Assembly: GCF_029338395.1 (NCBI RefSeq)
Contig: NZ_CP119809.1
Coordinates: 992,001-1,056,000 of the forward strand
Length of the DNA stretch: 64,000 bases
Source: Halorussus caseinilyticus
Lineage (GTDB): Archaea; Halobacteriota; Halobacteria; Halobacteriales; Haladaptataceae
Direction: 5' to 3'
A program made the position numbers and the translations under genes. This document shows positions 6,965 through 56,583 of this stretch, in pieces (positions within the stretch are counted from its first letter, which is position 1; each line of letters begins with the position of its first letter). Below the pieces are notes generated by a model. It searched no databases, was not told where the DNA came from, and was given only the letters and a program-made list of their open reading frames with translations.

Positions 6965-7130
6965 ACCGGAAACCGACGGGCAAGCGGGGGACAGGCTTGC
7001 GCCAATCAGGACCGCACCGCGCGGGCCACACGCCTCCCCAACCGACTGCGTTGCCTGCGGTCGCAAGTCAGCGAGGCGCGAAGCGTCTCGCAAGCCTCGG
7101 TCGCTCCGCTCCCGACGACCTCACGCAACA
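6965..7130 (+). repeat. modular dispersed element, copy A
   Basis: Copy A contains the shared head (CAGGCTTG...CCAATCAGGACCGC), the core CACGCCTCCCCAACCGACT, then a 9-bp hairpin at 7071-7091 and a tail ending near 7130. Bases 6965-7047 are identical over 83 bp to the reverse complement of 16141-16223 (copy B). It lies just upstream of the gene at 7277. Confidence 0.8.
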
Positions 7131-7276
7131 AAATGACGAAGGGGAAATCAATCGAGGGCGTGATTCACCCGCCAGAGACCCCTCCCCGCCGAGTAATCGC
7201 CGCGTTCTTCGACCGCGTTCCATCCTGCCAATGGCGTTACGTTCATGACGCGCCGGGTCGTAGGTGGGCGTACGGA

Positions 7277-16008: not shown

Positions 16009-16223
16009 CTCTCCCCGGCGCGCGCTGGCGTCGTCGGCGCTCCGCGCCGACTGCTCGGGGAACGCGGGTCGCCCCCGCCGCGACTTCATGCCGTGCCACC
16101 GTCGCGCGAGGGATGACCGAACGACTGGAAGGAGTGAGGGAGTCGGTTGGGGAGGCGTGTGGCCCGCGCGGTGCGGTCCTGATTGGCGCAAGCCTGTCCC
16201 CCGCTTGCCCGTCGGTTTCCGGT
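16009..16223 (-). repeat. modular dispersed element, copy B
   Basis: Read on the minus strand, bases 16223-16141 are identical over 83 bp to copy A, including head and CCTCCCCAACCGACT core. Further on come CCCTCGCGCG, a hairpin-like GGCACGGCATGAAGTCGCGG and the tail CCAGCGCGCGCCGG near 16025-16012. It lies downstream of the importer operon, facing inward toward copy A. Confidence 0.78.
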
Positions 16224-16805: not shown

Positions 16806-17021
16806 GCGAGGGACACGGAAAGCCGGGGAGTAAAAGCTACCGGGACGACGGGAAGACGTGTTTGCGTATTCGCTTCGGCATTGTTTTTATTTCTTTTGTA
16901 TTTCTACGTGTTGTCTAGTGGTCAGTCGGTCGAGGTCGGAACCCCGAGAACCACCGACAACCGTGAACGCGGAGAGGGTGAGCGAAACTGACAGCCCCGA
17001 ACGCGGAGAGCGCTAGCTTCA

Positions 17022-17172
17022 GGCTTGAACCGATGAGGACCGCCACCGCCCCGCACCGCGACCGCGGACCACACGCCTCCCCAACCGACTGCGTTGCTCC
17101 CCCCGGTGCGCTACTCGTCCCTCGCGCGAATTGGCGCGGCATGAAGCCGCGCCAGCGTGCGCCGACGTAGAA
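17022..17172 (+). repeat. modular dispersed element, copy C
   Basis: Head GCTAGCTTCAGGCTTGAACC, then a run of ACCGC units, core CACGCCTCCCCAACCGACTG, CTACTCGTCCCTCGCGCG, a perfect 9-bp hairpin (17132-17140 with 17146-17154, loop atgaa) and a tail to about 17172. A 54-bp stretch is identical to copy D in inverse orientation. It sits 200 bases before PilB. An AT-rich tract (about 16874-16910) lies on its left; no gene is visible from 16806 to 17369. Confidence 0.8.
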
Positions 17173-17369
17173 AGCGACCACGCCATCGCGCCGACGTGGA
17201 AAACTCGTCCGAGAGTGCCGACGCCAAAGACCCACCGACGGACACGTCGAAGCGGGTCGATTCCGTCCGCCCGCGTCCCCTGTCCGGTAATTTAAGTACC
17301 CCCGACGAGATGTGGCGCGTGAACCGTCGCGGTCGGGTCGCCGACCCGACCGCTCGCCCCCGACCCATC

Positions 17370-21380: not shown

Positions 21381-21648
21381 TCTCCACGTCGGCGCGCTCG
21401 GGCGCGCCCCGCGAGTGGCCGCGCCCATCCGCGCGAGGTCGTCGGGAACGAAGTGACCGAAGCCCTCGAAAATCGAAGATTTTTGGGATGTAGCGAATCA
21501 GTGATTCGCAACAGCTCGTCGGAACTCGCTTCCGACGGTGGATGACCGAATGACTGGACGGAGTGAGGGAGTCGGCTGGGGAGGCGTGTGGTCCGCGGTC
21601 GCGGTGCGGGGCGGTGGCGGTCCTCATCGGCTCAAGACTGAAGTCAGC
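21381..21648 (-). repeat. modular dispersed element, copy D (long form)
   Basis: Read on the minus strand from 21648: head CAGTCTTGAGCC, ACCGC run, core CACGCCTCCCCAGCCGACT, then hairpins including a 24-bp module at 21515-21538 identical to one in copy F, further stem-loops (CGAATCAGTGATTCG), and a tail near CGAGCGCGCCGACG. It lies behind the PilC gene and faces copy C. An AT-rich tract (21306-21380) adjoins its tail. The rest of 21269-21800 shows no gene. Confidence 0.75.
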
Positions 21649-49733: not shown

Positions 49734-50200
49734 GGGACGGACTTCGCGCCGACGACCGCGGCGTCTCGGTCACGGTCAACTACGCGCTCAATCTCGTGGT
49801 GGCGACCCTACTCATCGGCGGGGTGCTGACCGCGACGGGCGGGATGGTAGAGGACCGCCGGGAGTCGGCGGTCCGGACCGAACTCTCGGTGGTGGGCGAG
49901 CGCATCGCCACCGACCTGATGGCCGCCGACAGACTCGCGGAAGTCGGCCGCGGCGACGAGACGGTGGCGGTGTCGATGACGCTCCCCGAGCGAGTCGCGG
50001 GCACGCGCTACGACGTGACCATCGACGCGACGGCGACGGACTCGACCATCGTCCTCCAGTCGAACACGCCCGAGGTGACGGTCCGGGTCGAGTTCCACAA
50101 CGCGACCGCGGTCCAATCGACCACGGTCCGGGGCGGCGACCTCCGAATCGAGTTGAACGCCGGGGCCGCGCCCGACCGACTGGAGGTGACGAACCCGTGA
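49730..50200 (+). CDS. pilin-like protein 4 (DUF7266-like)
   Basis: A 156-residue protein: short N-terminus with DDRGVSVTVNYALN, helix LVVATLLIGGVLTATGGMV, then an external domain (VAVSMTLPERVAGTRYDVTI, VRVEFHNATAVQSTTV). DRGVS before the helix resembles an archaeal prepilin cleavage region. I recall DUF7266. Its ATG overlaps the previous stop and its stop overlaps the next GTG start (GTGA), so the five pilin-like genes are tightly coupled. Confidence 0.78.
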   Translation: MRDGLRADDRGVSVTVNYALNLVVATLLIGGVLTATGGMVEDRRESAVRTELSVVGERIATDLMAADRLAEVGRGDETVAVSMTLPERVAGTRYDVTIDATATDSTIVLQSNTPEVTVRVEFHNATAVQSTTVRGGDLRIELNAGAAPDRLEVTNP

Positions 50201-50991
50201 GCAGAAACTGCGACCTGCTGGACCGCCGCGGGGTCAGCGAGACCATCGGCTTCGTGTTCGTGTTCGCGCTCGTGACCGCCTCCATCGGCGTGGTCTACAC
50301 CACCGGTATCGGCGGACTGGAGGACGCCCGCGAGGACGAGCAACTCACCAACGCGGTCCGGGCGTTCGACGTGCTTGCCGACAACGTGGGCGACGTGACC
50401 AGCGAGGGCGCGCCGAGTCGGGCGACCGAACTCAAACTCTCGGGCGCGAGCGTCGGGTTCGGCGACCCGGTGGGAATAACGGTGCAGGTCAACGACACCG
50501 ACAGCGACGCCAACTTGACCTACACCCAGACCACCCGGCCGCTGGTGTACGACGCACCGGCCGGACAGGTGGTGTACTCGGCGGGCGCGACGTTCCGGGT
50601 GGACGGGGGCGACGCCGCGATGCGGTCCGAACCCGGACTGGTCGTCACGGACCGCCAGTCGGTCGTTCCGCTGGTCGTAACCTACCCCGCGTCCGACTCG
50701 GGCGGCGTGGGCGGGAGTTCGACGGTACTGGTGGTCGCCCACCGACAGTCGGTCGAACTCGGCGGTCGGTTCGACACCGGCCCGGACCCCGCGGACGAGG
50801 CCCGAGTCAACGTCACGGTGAACTCGCCGCGAGCGGCGGCGTGGGGCCGGTACTTCGAGTCGCTGGGGATGTCGCCGCCGAACTCGAACCCGGCGGCCGC
50901 GGACCCGAGCGACGGGGAAGTGACCTACCAGTTCTTCACCGACCGCCTGCTCGTTCCGGAGTCGGTGGTGGAGTTCGAGATAGCGGGGTGA
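50197..50991 (+). CDS. pilin-like protein 5 (DUF7289-like)
   Basis: A 264-residue protein from a GTG start overlapping the preceding stop. DRRGVSETIGFVFVFALVTA is very close to the RxVSxxIG...helix of haloarchaeal type IV pilins. The external domain includes NVTVNSPRAAAWGRYFESLG and VTYQFFTDRLLVPES. I recall it as DUF7289. It closes the pil operon. A related, larger protein lies convergently at 51628-53403; both share the pattern VNVTV...AWGRYF/AWGRFF. Confidence 0.8.
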   Translation: MSRNCDLLDRRGVSETIGFVFVFALVTASIGVVYTTGIGGLEDAREDEQLTNAVRAFDVLADNVGDVTSEGAPSRATELKLSGASVGFGDPVGITVQVNDTDSDANLTYTQTTRPLVYDAPAGQVVYSAGATFRVDGGDAAMRSEPGLVVTDRQSVVPLVVTYPASDSGGVGGSSTVLVVAHRQSVELGGRFDTGPDPADEARVNVTVNSPRAAAWGRYFESLGMSPPNSNPAAADPSDGEVTYQFFTDRLLVPESVVEFEIAG

Positions 50992-51082
50992 GAGCGCCGT
51001 GGCGTGGTGTGCTTTCGATTCGTTCTTCCTCTCGAAACGGTGCTTTCGGCGAGTTCACCGTTTTCGGCGCGTCTTCTCGTTT

Positions 51083-51285
51083 TTCTGCTCCGGCGCGCGC
51101 GAGCAACGCGCGCGAGGGATGAGGCTTGCGAGACGCTTCGCGTCTCGCTGATTTGCGAACGTCGTTCGCAAACATCGCAGGGAGGAACGACCGAAGGGAG
51201 TGACGACCGAGACGCGCAATCGGTTGGGGAGGACGTGGCGCGGTGCCGTGCGGTTGCGGTCTGATAGGTTCAAGCCTGAAGTCAC
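51083..51285 (-). repeat. modular dispersed element, copy E
   Basis: Read on the minus strand: head TTCAGGCTTGAACCTATCAG, ACCGC units, core ACGTCCTCCCCAACCGATTG, hairpin 51152-51172 (10-bp stem), hairpin 51128-51148 (9-bp stem, same module as in copy A) and a tail CTCGCGCGCGCCGGAGCAGA shared with copy F. It lies behind the pil operon. Confidence 0.8.
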
Positions 51286-51290
51286 GGTGC

Positions 51291-51356
51291 GGTCGCAGTG
51301 CTGTCTCGTCGTTCGGTCGCAGTGCTGTCTCGTCGTTCGGTCGCAGTGCTGTCTCG
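51291..51356. repeat. three tandem copies of a 24-bp unit
   Basis: Unit GGTCGCAGTGCTGTCTCG plus TCGTTC starts at 51291, 51315 and 51339; the first two are identical and the third diverges after 18 bases. It lies exactly between the outward-facing heads of element copies E and F. Confidence 0.85.
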
Positions 51357-51432
51357 CCCTGAAGTCGTGTTTTCTCGGGTCACAGAGGCTTCACCGGGAA
51401 GCGACGAGAAACGACGAGAAGAGACGCGAGAA

Positions 51433-51588
51433 GCTAGCTACAGGTTTGAGCCAATCACACCGCCACCTCGTCCTCCCCAACCTCCTCGTTCGCTCCCTTC
51501 GGTCGCTCACTCGTCCACCGTCGGAAGCGAGTTCCGACGAGCCTTCCGTCGCTTCGCTCCGGAAGACCTCGCGCGCGCCGGAGCAGAA
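51433..51588 (+). repeat. modular dispersed element, copy F
   Basis: Head GCTAGCTACAGGTTTGAGCC, shortened middle, core GTCCTCCCCAACC, the 24-bp hairpin module 51518-51541 (identical to one in copy D), a second stem CTTCCG...CGGAAG, and the tail CTCGCGCGCGCCGGAGCAGA. With copy E and the 24-bp repeats it fills the convergent gap 50992-51627, which has no gene. Confidence 0.8.
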
Positions 51589-51627
51589 GAAACGCCGTCG
51601 CGTGTGAACTACCCCGGCCTGCTCGGA

Positions 51628-53403
51628 CTAAACACTCGTGACGTTGACGTGGGAGACGCTGATGTGGAGGTACGTCAGGCGCGGGACGTTCTGGGCCGCG
51701 CCGACCACGGGGTCCACGGATTCCAGTGCGCGGTCGAAGTGAATCGACCCGCCCGCTTTCAGGAGGGTGTCGCCGCCGCCGACGATGCCGCCGTAGAGGT
51801 CCGCCTGCGTTCGGACCGTAATCGCGCCCGGATTGGTGTCGGTGCCCGGCGCGTAGATGAGACCGACGAACTTCGCGTGGTCGTCGAGTCTCACTTCGAG
51901 ACCCGGCCCGGCGTACACCCGGAAGACGGGCGACCGGTGGGTGGTCGTGTCGCCGACGGTGCCGCCGACGACGTGGAACCTCGAACCGCTGGTGTAGAGT
52001 TTCACCATCCCGCCGTTGGGGTCGGTCACTTCGACGTTCACGTCGTTCCATACGATGTCGTCGTCCACGACCAGCGTGATGTCCCCGCCGGTGTTGTCGA
52101 GTTCGAGCGTCTGGGAGGAGTCGAGGTCGTCGTTCGAGACGAAGTACGCGCCGTCGGGGAGCGTCAGCGTCGATTCGGAGTCGTTCCACGTGTCGGTACT
52201 CTCGTTGATGGCCGTGACGCCGCCGTTGTCGTTGTTCGAGGACTTGCTGTAGGTCGTGACTTTCCCCTGTACCATGTCGCCGATGGGACTGATGTCCGGG
52301 GCCGTCCCGTTTCCGGACTGCCATCCGTTCACCGCGCTACAGTCGCTCCCCGGCGGGCCGCCGTTGCAACTGGCCGTCCCGCCGTACGAGAGGTTGCCGT
52401 GGACCGCGACCCCGCCGCCGAAGTCCACGGTGCCGCCGCCGGTCCGCAGGTCGCCGTATATCTCGGCCCCGCCGGTCAGTTCGACGCTCCCCTTCGTGAC
52501 GATGGTTCCCTCGTAAGGCGGGGACGGACTTCCCGGATACGCGCCCGTAGAGGAGTTGTAGCTATCGGTGAACGACGACCCGCCAGCGCCCTGAATCGTC
52601 ATCTCGTCGGGCGTGGTTCCCGCCAGCGCGTTCGTGACGTTGCGCGTCCGCGTGGGCACGACCAGCGTGATGGTCACGCGGTCGTCCGGGTGATGGTACG
52701 TCACCGACCCGCCGGTCCGTTGCTCGAAGAACCGACCCCACGCCTCGTAGTACTCGCTCCGAACCGTGACGTTCACCTCGCCGTTCGTGAGGGGGTTCCG
52801 GAAGTCGGGGTTGCCCTTCTTGGGAAACTTCGCGTCAGTGTCGCCGTCGCCGGTGACTCGGACCCGACCGCCGAGCGACTCGCTCCCGTTGACCGCGACC
52901 AGCGGAAGCGTGAGGGTGGTCCCCCGGTAGTGGAACTCCGGCGGCGACACCATCGTACTCCCGTTGTCGGTTCGCTTCCAGACGCCGCCGCCCTGATACG
53001 CGATTCTGGTATCGCCGTTCCGGTAGGCGATTGCGCCGAGCGTCTGGTTCATGACGACGTGTTCGGTGGTCCCGTCGGTCCGGTTGACGACTCGGACGCG
53101 CATCCATCCCGTCCGGTTCTCGACGGTGGCGCTATCGACGCCCAGCGAGACGCTCTGGGTGGGCGAAGAACCGATGCCGACCAGACTCGCCTTCGAGTCG
53201 AGTTGGGTCATCGCGTGTTCGGCGCTGTCGATTTCCGACGACTGCTTCGAGTCGTCCAGTGCCGACGACCCGAACGCGACGATGAGTCCCGTCCCCGTGA
53301 TGGTGATGGCGAGCAACAGAACGACGCCGAGTACTTCCGACTGACCGCGCGTGCGCTTCGACTCCCCGTCTGCCCTCGCGTTCGGACTCCGCCGACCGGT
53401 CAT
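51628..53403 (-). CDS. large pilin-like surface protein (DUF7289-type) with polymer-forming-like region
   Basis: A 591-residue protein. The basic N-terminus RTRGQSEVLGVVLLLAITI is a type IV pilin-like signal and helix. The middle has many NxT/NxS sequons (NRTGW, NQTLG, NVTVRSEY) and an AWGRFFEQRTGG motif shared with the pilin-like protein at 50197. Residues about 300-440 (IVTKGSVELTGGAEIYGDLR, FGGGVAVHGNLSYGG) look like a bactofilin or polymer-forming beta-helix. Three Cys are visible near 355-365. It is convergent with the pil operon and probably belongs to the same surface structure, as a minor pilin or adhesin. Confidence 0.78.
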   Translation of the reverse strand: MTGRRSPNARADGESKRTRGQSEVLGVVLLLAITITGTGLIVAFGSSALDDSKQSSEIDSAEHAMTQLDSKASLVGIGSSPTQSVSLGVDSATVENRTGWMRVRVVNRTDGTTEHVVMNQTLGAIAYRNGDTRIAYQGGGVWKRTDNGSTMVSPPEFHYRGTTLTLPLVAVNGSESLGGRVRVTGDGDTDAKFPKKGNPDFRNPLTNGEVNVTVRSEYYEAWGRFFEQRTGGSVTYHHPDDRVTITLVVPTRTRNVTNALAGTTPDEMTIQGAGGSSFTDSYNSSTGAYPGSPSPPYEGTIVTKGSVELTGGAEIYGDLRTGGGTVDFGGGVAVHGNLSYGGTASCNGGPPGSDCSAVNGWQSGNGTAPDISPIGDMVQGKVTTYSKSSNNDNGGVTAINESTDTWNDSESTLTLPDGAYFVSNDDLDSSQTLELDNTGGDITLVVDDDIVWNDVNVEVTDPNGGMVKLYTSGSRFHVVGGTVGDTTTHRSPVFRVYAGPGLEVRLDDHAKFVGLIYAPGTDTNPGAITVRTQADLYGGIVGGGDTLLKAGGSIHFDRALESVDPVVGAAQNVPRLTYLHISVSHVNVTSV

Positions 53404-55790: not shown

Positions 55791-55862
55791 TGGACTCGTC
55801 GGGATTTGAACCCGAGGCCTTCCCCGTGCCAGGGGGATGATCTACCGCTGATCTACGAGCCC
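55791..55862 (-). tRNA. tRNA-Ala (anticodon GGC)
   Basis: A full cloverleaf on the minus strand: acceptor GGGCTCG/CGAGTCC including the G3:U70 wobble pair that identifies tRNA-Ala, discriminator A, anticodon stem TCCCC/GGGGA with loop CTGGCAC. The anticodon lies at 55828-55830. CCA not encoded. Confidence 0.96.
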
Positions 55863-56155: not shown

Positions 56156-56322
56156 GCTAGTTACAGGCTTGAACCAATCAGACCGCACCGCAACCGCCCC
56201 GCACCGCAACCGCAGGCCACGTCCTCCCCAACCGACTGCGTTGCTCGTCGCTTCGCTCCTGCGCTACTCGTCCCTCGCACGGTATGGCGCGGCACGAGGC
56301 CGCGCCAGCGCGCGCCGGAAGA
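56156..56322 (+). repeat. modular dispersed element, copy G
   Basis: Head GCTAGTTACAGGCTTGAACC, long ACCGC run, core ACGTCCTCCCCAACCGACTG, CTACTCGTCCCTCGCACG, a perfect 9-bp hairpin (56285-56293 with 56299-56307) and a tail GCGCGCGCCGGAA. The closest relative in layout is copy C. An AT-rich tract (55985-56060) lies on its left. It precedes rps15 by about 260 bases; no gene is seen from 55863 to 56583. Confidence 0.8.
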
Positions 56323-56583
56323 GCGTAAGTAACCTCTTCGGAAACCCATCTCGAACAGTGTTCCACACGTTGTTGATGGATAGTAACCCTTTACTTGCTA
56401 CGTTGTTACCGTACTAAGTACGGGAACAGCACAGCCGCAAATCTGACTCGCCACTCGGAGACGCCTCGCGTCTCGCTATTTCGTGGCTCGGGATTGCGGA
56501 CGTGCACCGCGTCAGACCGACGCACCAGCACGCCTACCTCACAGTCGGCGATAGCGGCCTGTGCAGTTCCAATCCAGACAACC

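Follow-up and report, generated by a model that had tools for sequence, protein, structure and literature searches.

The two inverted repeats, E and F, that face each other head to head between a pil-type operon and a convergent pilin-like gene of Halorussus caseinilyticus are most probably copies of a modular dispersed element, which carries a mobile cassette and has spread as selfish palindromic DNA, the tandem array lying between them being a by-product; a probability of roughly 0.78 is given to this reading as a whole. Genome comparisons show that E and F are members of a dispersed, non-coding and intergenic haloarchaeal repeat that is uneven among related species, and that the type-1 cassette of F is mobile on its own and enters beside a C without target duplication. 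At the pil locus itself, the pair has no demonstrated job.

Organization of the locus

In the window, i.e. the whole stretch of 64,000 nucleotides that was analysed, the head-to-head arrangement described by the first-pass annotation is real, with E at 51090-51280 on the minus strand and F at 51434-51581 on the plus strand. The tails, reported there as identical, form an inverted repeat of 24 nt with 23/24 complementary positions, and the three direct repeats of 24 bp between the heads correspond to 2.8 copies with 100% matches. The gap was also rightly placed, as a DUF7289 ORF closes the pil-type operon with its stop at 50991 and a convergent DUF7289-DUF7305 gene occupies 51628-53403 (-) on the other side. 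This convergent gene is a paralogue of the last gene of the operon (50197-50991) to which a DUF7305 domain has been added. The parts of the locus are as follows:

51090-51280, minus strand: element E, entire copy, head at 51280 and tail at 51090
51256-51280, minus strand: E head, TTCAGGCTTGAACCTATCAGACCGC, without the CTAGC present in most copies
51222-51232, minus strand: E core, CCTCCCCAACC
51124-51172, minus strand: type-2 double-hairpin module within P1 (first hairpin) of E
51090-51116, minus strand: E tail including the last hairpin P4 (CTCGCGCGCGTTGCTCGCGCGCGCCGG)
51290-51356, no strand: 24-bp tandem repeat, unit CGGTCGCAGTGCTGTCTCGTCGTT, 2.8 copies, between the E and F heads
51434-51581, plus strand: element F, entire copy, head at 51434 and tail at 51581
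51434-51457, plus strand: F head, CTAGCTACAGGTTTGAGCCAATCA
51472-51482, plus strand: F core, CCTCCCCAACC
51483-51516, plus strand: P1 of F (first hairpin region)
51517-51567, plus strand: type-1 double-hairpin cassette of F, ACCG-hpA-CGAGC-hpB-GAC, R1 match of 72.3 bits
51568-51581, plus strand: F tail, CTCGCGCGCGCCGG, P4 hairpin lost
51080-51103 (left arm) and 51568-51591 (right arm), no strand: 24-nt inverted repeat of the E and F tails

Both heads correspond to AGGYTTGARCCWATCA, that of E being devoid of the CTAGC seen in F. The internal hairpin modules differ, E having a type-2 module in P1 and F one of type 1 that separates P1 from the tail. With up to 2 mismatches allowed, the head pattern has 4 matches in the window vs. 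0.19 expected, and five further copies of the element are present in the window:

6985-7162, plus strand: further copy (C1:998984-999162)
16016-16203, minus strand: further copy, head to head with the copy at 17013-17205, heads 810 bp apart
17013-17205, plus strand: further copy
21455-21647, minus strand: further copy
56157-56317, plus strand: further copy

A Rfam search of the window and 13 loci returned no match at the element; an S15-Halobacteria ribosomal leader and a tRNA were found above Rfam thresholds at 56420-56505 and 55791-55862, respectively.

A dispersed haloarchaeal element with a fixed frame

Among the proposals of the first-pass annotation, that of a small element was the right one. 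BLAST against the own genome gives at least 56 matches for F and at least 58 for E (40 candidate places scored), the head pattern occurs at about 125 places (reversed control, 0), and the exact core CCTCCCCAACCKMYT is present in 122 copies. Across 391 haloarchaeal genomes, the core is enriched over the reversed-pattern control in 149, belonging to 49 of the 86 genera, with exact-core copy numbers ranging from 0, as in the congener G008, to 122, such exact-pattern counts being lower bounds. A plasmid search gave weak matches in haloarchaeal plasmids only, and element strings looked up in the literature had only unrelated matches among the matches listed.

The module order is constant in the 70 copies read side by side, namely head, ACCGC-rich stretch, core, P1, CTCGCRCG, P4 and GCRCGCGCCG, where the head is usually CTAGC followed by AGGCTTGARCCAATCA, the core is CCTCCCCAACC, P1 is closed by GAY/RTC and the tail is GCRCGCGCCG. 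Double-hairpin modules are optional and inserted into this fixed frame, an architecture shared by other families of the class. On the tail-to-head strand, GNA triloops outnumber TNC triloops (25 vs. 12) and tandem GA occurs 21 vs. 0 times; as the copies are homologous and some loops are inverted, this excess of GNA loops is only a hint at the strand of function. In type-2 modules (e.g. L032, L033, L036 and L126), the second hairpin has a loop that reads either GCGAAGC or, in the opposite orientation, GCTTCGC, as though hairpins could flip.

Several additional observations concern the family at large. Recent identical whole copies were considered in G011 and rejected, the heads being alike and the bodies different. 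In 800 kb of C1 (L061-L100), CTAG is eightfold depleted (314 sites vs. 2568 expected), with 71 of the 314 sites in a head-like context of the elements and GCTAGC as the commonest form. Near-identical element-bearing stretches occur at C1:35.8 kb and at the extreme end of C1 (3482.2 kb; L008/L009 and L041/L043), which is possibly an assembly or end duplication.

Gene context, synteny and the tandem array

Regarding a possible role at gene ends, the first-pass annotation had suggested a double terminator, each convergent gene ending in its own hairpin element so that antisense read-through is prevented. At this locus each tail indeed points to the 3' end of a gene, and the E tail is preceded on the pil side by a T-rich stretch, but this is not a general property of the family. 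In an unbiased sample of 800 kb, analysed with a home-made gene finder and a simple codon model, among 41 intergenic copies, 22 tails face the 3' end of a gene and 19 a 5' end, the corresponding numbers for the heads being 20 and 21, so that a fixed orientation to genes was rejected and no placement at gene 3' ends is apparent. Moreover, of the 11 congeners compared at the syntenic convergent locus, nine have this gene pair separated by a short gap (roughly 0-150 bp) from which the element is absent; the genes of G012 and G005 even touch each other, so that a terminator element has no space there. With this gene pair element-free in nine congeners, a double terminator is not supported and is considered quite improbable. 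As for the other two, G007 has a longer gap of different sequence and no recognisable element copy, and G013 has a head-to-head pair in which the F-like copy is degenerate and from which the 24-bp array is missing.

The head-to-head configuration, a search for which had been advised, does recur elsewhere, as inverted neighbours closer than 1.5 kb in the 800-kb sample comprise six head-to-head and no tail-to-tail pairs, although these are few. Of 71 heads, 20 have a tandem array, with units that differ between copies, in the adjoining 150 bp of outside sequence, compared with 75 of 814 control intergenic pieces (Fisher p 1.5e-5); for tails the figure is 13 of 64 against the same control (Fisher p 0.0085). 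In some arrays the repeated unit takes in the end of the element itself, and at several loci it is the head that is repeated in tandem. Considering that the 24-bp array is missing in G013 and that unrelated arrays flank other copies, it is regarded as a common by-product, which would arise, as would the arrays elsewhere, when slippage or repair duplicates local DNA in tandem beside a structured element. The symmetry of the locus and the repeats between the heads had also led to the proposal of a locus-specific recombination or replication site with the 24-bp repeats as iterons; with a G013 pair devoid of these repeats and other copies flanked by unrelated arrays or by none, this explanation finds no support and is very unlikely indeed.

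A mobile double-hairpin cassette

The type-1 cassette is a double hairpin of 48-57 bp, of which 92 copies were counted in the own genome from an alignment and a model whose E-values are rough. It was found in 101 of 116 haloarchaeal genomes and, in a phylum sample of 247 genomes, in Halobacteria only (0 of about 200 others). In the 800-kb sample, all 24 strong matches are intergenic, about 82% of that DNA being coding. Within the element, the cassette is located between P1 and P4, inside P1 (L127) or inside P4 (L027), and it also occurs in several unrelated host repeats with filled and empty counterparts, including an element at gene 3' ends with the site CTG^NACCAAAAA and a host with the site CCCTTTCAGTCC^GCCAGG. 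A second gene-end repeat (ACCACCTTTTTTCTTCGTCGGGTG...CTCGAAAAA..CTGNACCAAAAAGYCCGCTCGCTC), located after stop codons, hosts a type-1 cassette as well, at the following loci:

L079:6100-6300, no strand given: second gene-end repeat
L098:10300-10500, no strand given: second gene-end repeat
C1:1064782, no strand given: second gene-end repeat
C1:1194257, no strand given: second gene-end repeat

Units similar to this second repeat (TTTTGCGCTGCGG...CTCGGCAAAAGCT) exist in other genera.

Cassettes also occur inside genes, three of them having been found in other genera, antisense and in frame, the gene names being read from translated sequences. In a predicted cobN, a clean 48-bp in-frame cassette is carried by G040 and G051, and 8 congeners lack it, 7 of them with flanks 85-91% identical over 302 bases. 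In a predicted precorrin-8X mutase gene, a 57-bp in-frame cassette is present in only one of 8 congeners (G102) and lacking in the other 7, the N-terminus of this protein being variable among them. Given their rarity, these two cassettes would be gains rather than losses. No clear target duplication was seen at either site, a 3-bp GTC repeat at cobN being indistinguishable from the cassette end. The third in-frame cassette was noticed in a GNAT-like acetyltransferase gene (L164 of G089; VSTSEASGGSSEQGSDGA). These filled and empty gene sites define the exact cassette ends; the whole element has no empty site with ends so defined.

The stems vary and remain paired. In the cassette alignment, 97.5% of cells are paired and 11 of 16 pairs have changed on both sides, with 47 double-change cells vs. 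13.6 after shuffling and 2 one-side cells. Among 22 matches from 20 other genomes outside the model, 99.1% of cells are paired and 13 of 16 pairs exhibit double changes, with 58 double-change cells vs. 18.7 after shuffling and no one-side cell; since the model itself was used to align this second set, the result is biased towards structure, and the set comprises the best-scoring matches, but the controls, shuffled or slid, do not come close. Folded as single-stranded DNA, E is better than its shuffles (z -2.24) and F alone is not (z +0.57).

Such very strong covariation, together with a core kept across many genera, could be expected from a structured RNA family whose transcripts are conserved for their fold. 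RNA families normally drift via G-U pairs. In the cassette, however, such pairs are almost absent (one-side cells 2 and 0; 3 G-T vs. 325 Watson-Crick cells in the own-genome copies), which argues for a process at the DNA level. Besides, no Rfam match exists and presence is patchy, G008 having no exact core at all, so a structured RNA has little probability.

Possible mechanism of spread

The elements would thus have spread as selfish palindromic DNA, perhaps recognised or copied as a folded single strand, since both stem arms change at once and G-T intermediates are almost absent; template-directed copying would be an alternative route. The palindromes could also be maintained by correction at the DNA level, for which no transposition is needed. 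In G058 (L187-L194), identical cassettes are found in elements that otherwise differ, which suggests exchange or gene conversion between copies and fits the latter as well.

No mobilising enzyme was found. The Y1 transposase domain is absent from the own genome and its presence in the genus bears no relation to copy number, and no internal transposase gene was recognised in the heads without core that were inspected. These results bear on the possibility that the element belongs to the PATEs, i.e. that it derives from IS200/IS605 and is mobilised by a Y1 transposase. In favour of it, the element ends are without terminal inverted repeats and have palindromes near them, cassette sites show no target duplication, and PATEs are known in Haloquadratum (PMC3119063). 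Yet the Y1 transposase is missing not only in the own genome but also in G001, G003 and G007 though cores are present, no longer version of the element carrying a transposase gene was seen, and hairpin cassettes lie anywhere in the element body; PATE membership is accordingly judged unlikely. The reading preferred here remains that of selfish palindromic DNA.

Extended to the Halobacteria, a broader view can be proposed tentatively, and it may well prove wrong: the cassettes would form class-wide, transposase-independent, nested double-hairpin DNA modules, copied as folded single strands, inserting by a C with no duplication of the target, residing in several unrelated host repeats and sometimes adding an acidic serine-rich segment of 16-19 residues (VxxSEASxGS) to conserved proteins. 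To our knowledge, short mobile palindromes able to alter proteins without breaking the reading frame have been documented chiefly in Rickettsia and in bacteria that bear REPs, a single report concerning archaea. The haloarchaeal cassette family extends over almost all genera sampled; its filled and empty sites in named genes are clean and its stems vary in sequence yet stay perfectly paired, so that movement without a recognisable transposase becomes testable. In addition, the element family accounts for many anonymous intergenic hairpins of haloarchaea, which would otherwise be taken for terminators, RNAs or sites of recombination.

Comparison with known systems

The PATEs of Haloquadratum walsbyi are non-coding, palindrome-associated and heterogeneous, generate no target duplication and have IS605-type ends (PMC3119063). 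The element is likewise haloarchaeal, non-coding, palindrome-associated, heterogeneous and without target duplication; it differs in that its own genome has no Y1 transposase and no IS605-type link was found by the search, which was for the Y1 domain only. From the same organism, SMR-A is about 110 bp long with terminal inverted repeats, and inserts into palindromes that belong to other elements, generating no target duplication (PMC3119063). The cassette is also small and inserts in palindromes without target duplication, but it is about 50 bp long and made of two separate hairpins. MITEs are defined by terminal inverted repeats and a target duplication; in the element head and tail are unrelated, and no clear target duplication is seen at the cassette sites in the cobN and precorrin-8X mutase genes, so that it does not qualify as a MITE. 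Mitochondrial double-hairpin elements are two adjacent GC-rich hairpins forming a dispersed unit; being organellar, they are likened to the cassette by description only.

REP/BIME sequences of the GTAG and CGTC types have covarying short stems, form dimers and clusters repeated with flanking DNA, and include intragenic copies and insertions into palindromes, those of the CGTC type having no dedicated transposase (PMC3733652). The cassette resembles them in these respects. CGTC REPs have an unpaired CGTC tag, a stem that begins with A-T pairs and a CCA tail, G-T pairs are frequent in GTAG REPs, and the survey reports bacterial phyla only (PMC3733652). Stem A of the cassette starts instead with C-G pairs (A1 and A3) and no CCA tail was seen, its alignment is devoid of a GTAG tag, its own genome lacks the Y1 domain expected of a RAYT, and G-T pairs are scarce.

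In an archaeon too, palindromic repeats that contain open frames and are fused into protein genes have been described, as far as the citing article reports them (Suyama 2005, cited in PMC2229807). They belong to another archaeal lineage and are likened to the cassette by description only. The organism was reportedly Methanocaldococcus jannaschii.

In Rickettsia, RPEs are short palindromic repeats of about 105-150 bp, both intergenic and in frame within unrelated protein genes (PMC10969869; PMC2229807). Like them, the cassette is palindromic with many copies (92; stems 97-99% paired) and lies in frame in conserved genes with empty sites in relatives. With its 48-57 bp it is too short for the Rickettsia family itself, from which it is set apart by description, as it consists of two adjacent hairpins, is restricted here to Halobacteria and nests in larger repeats.
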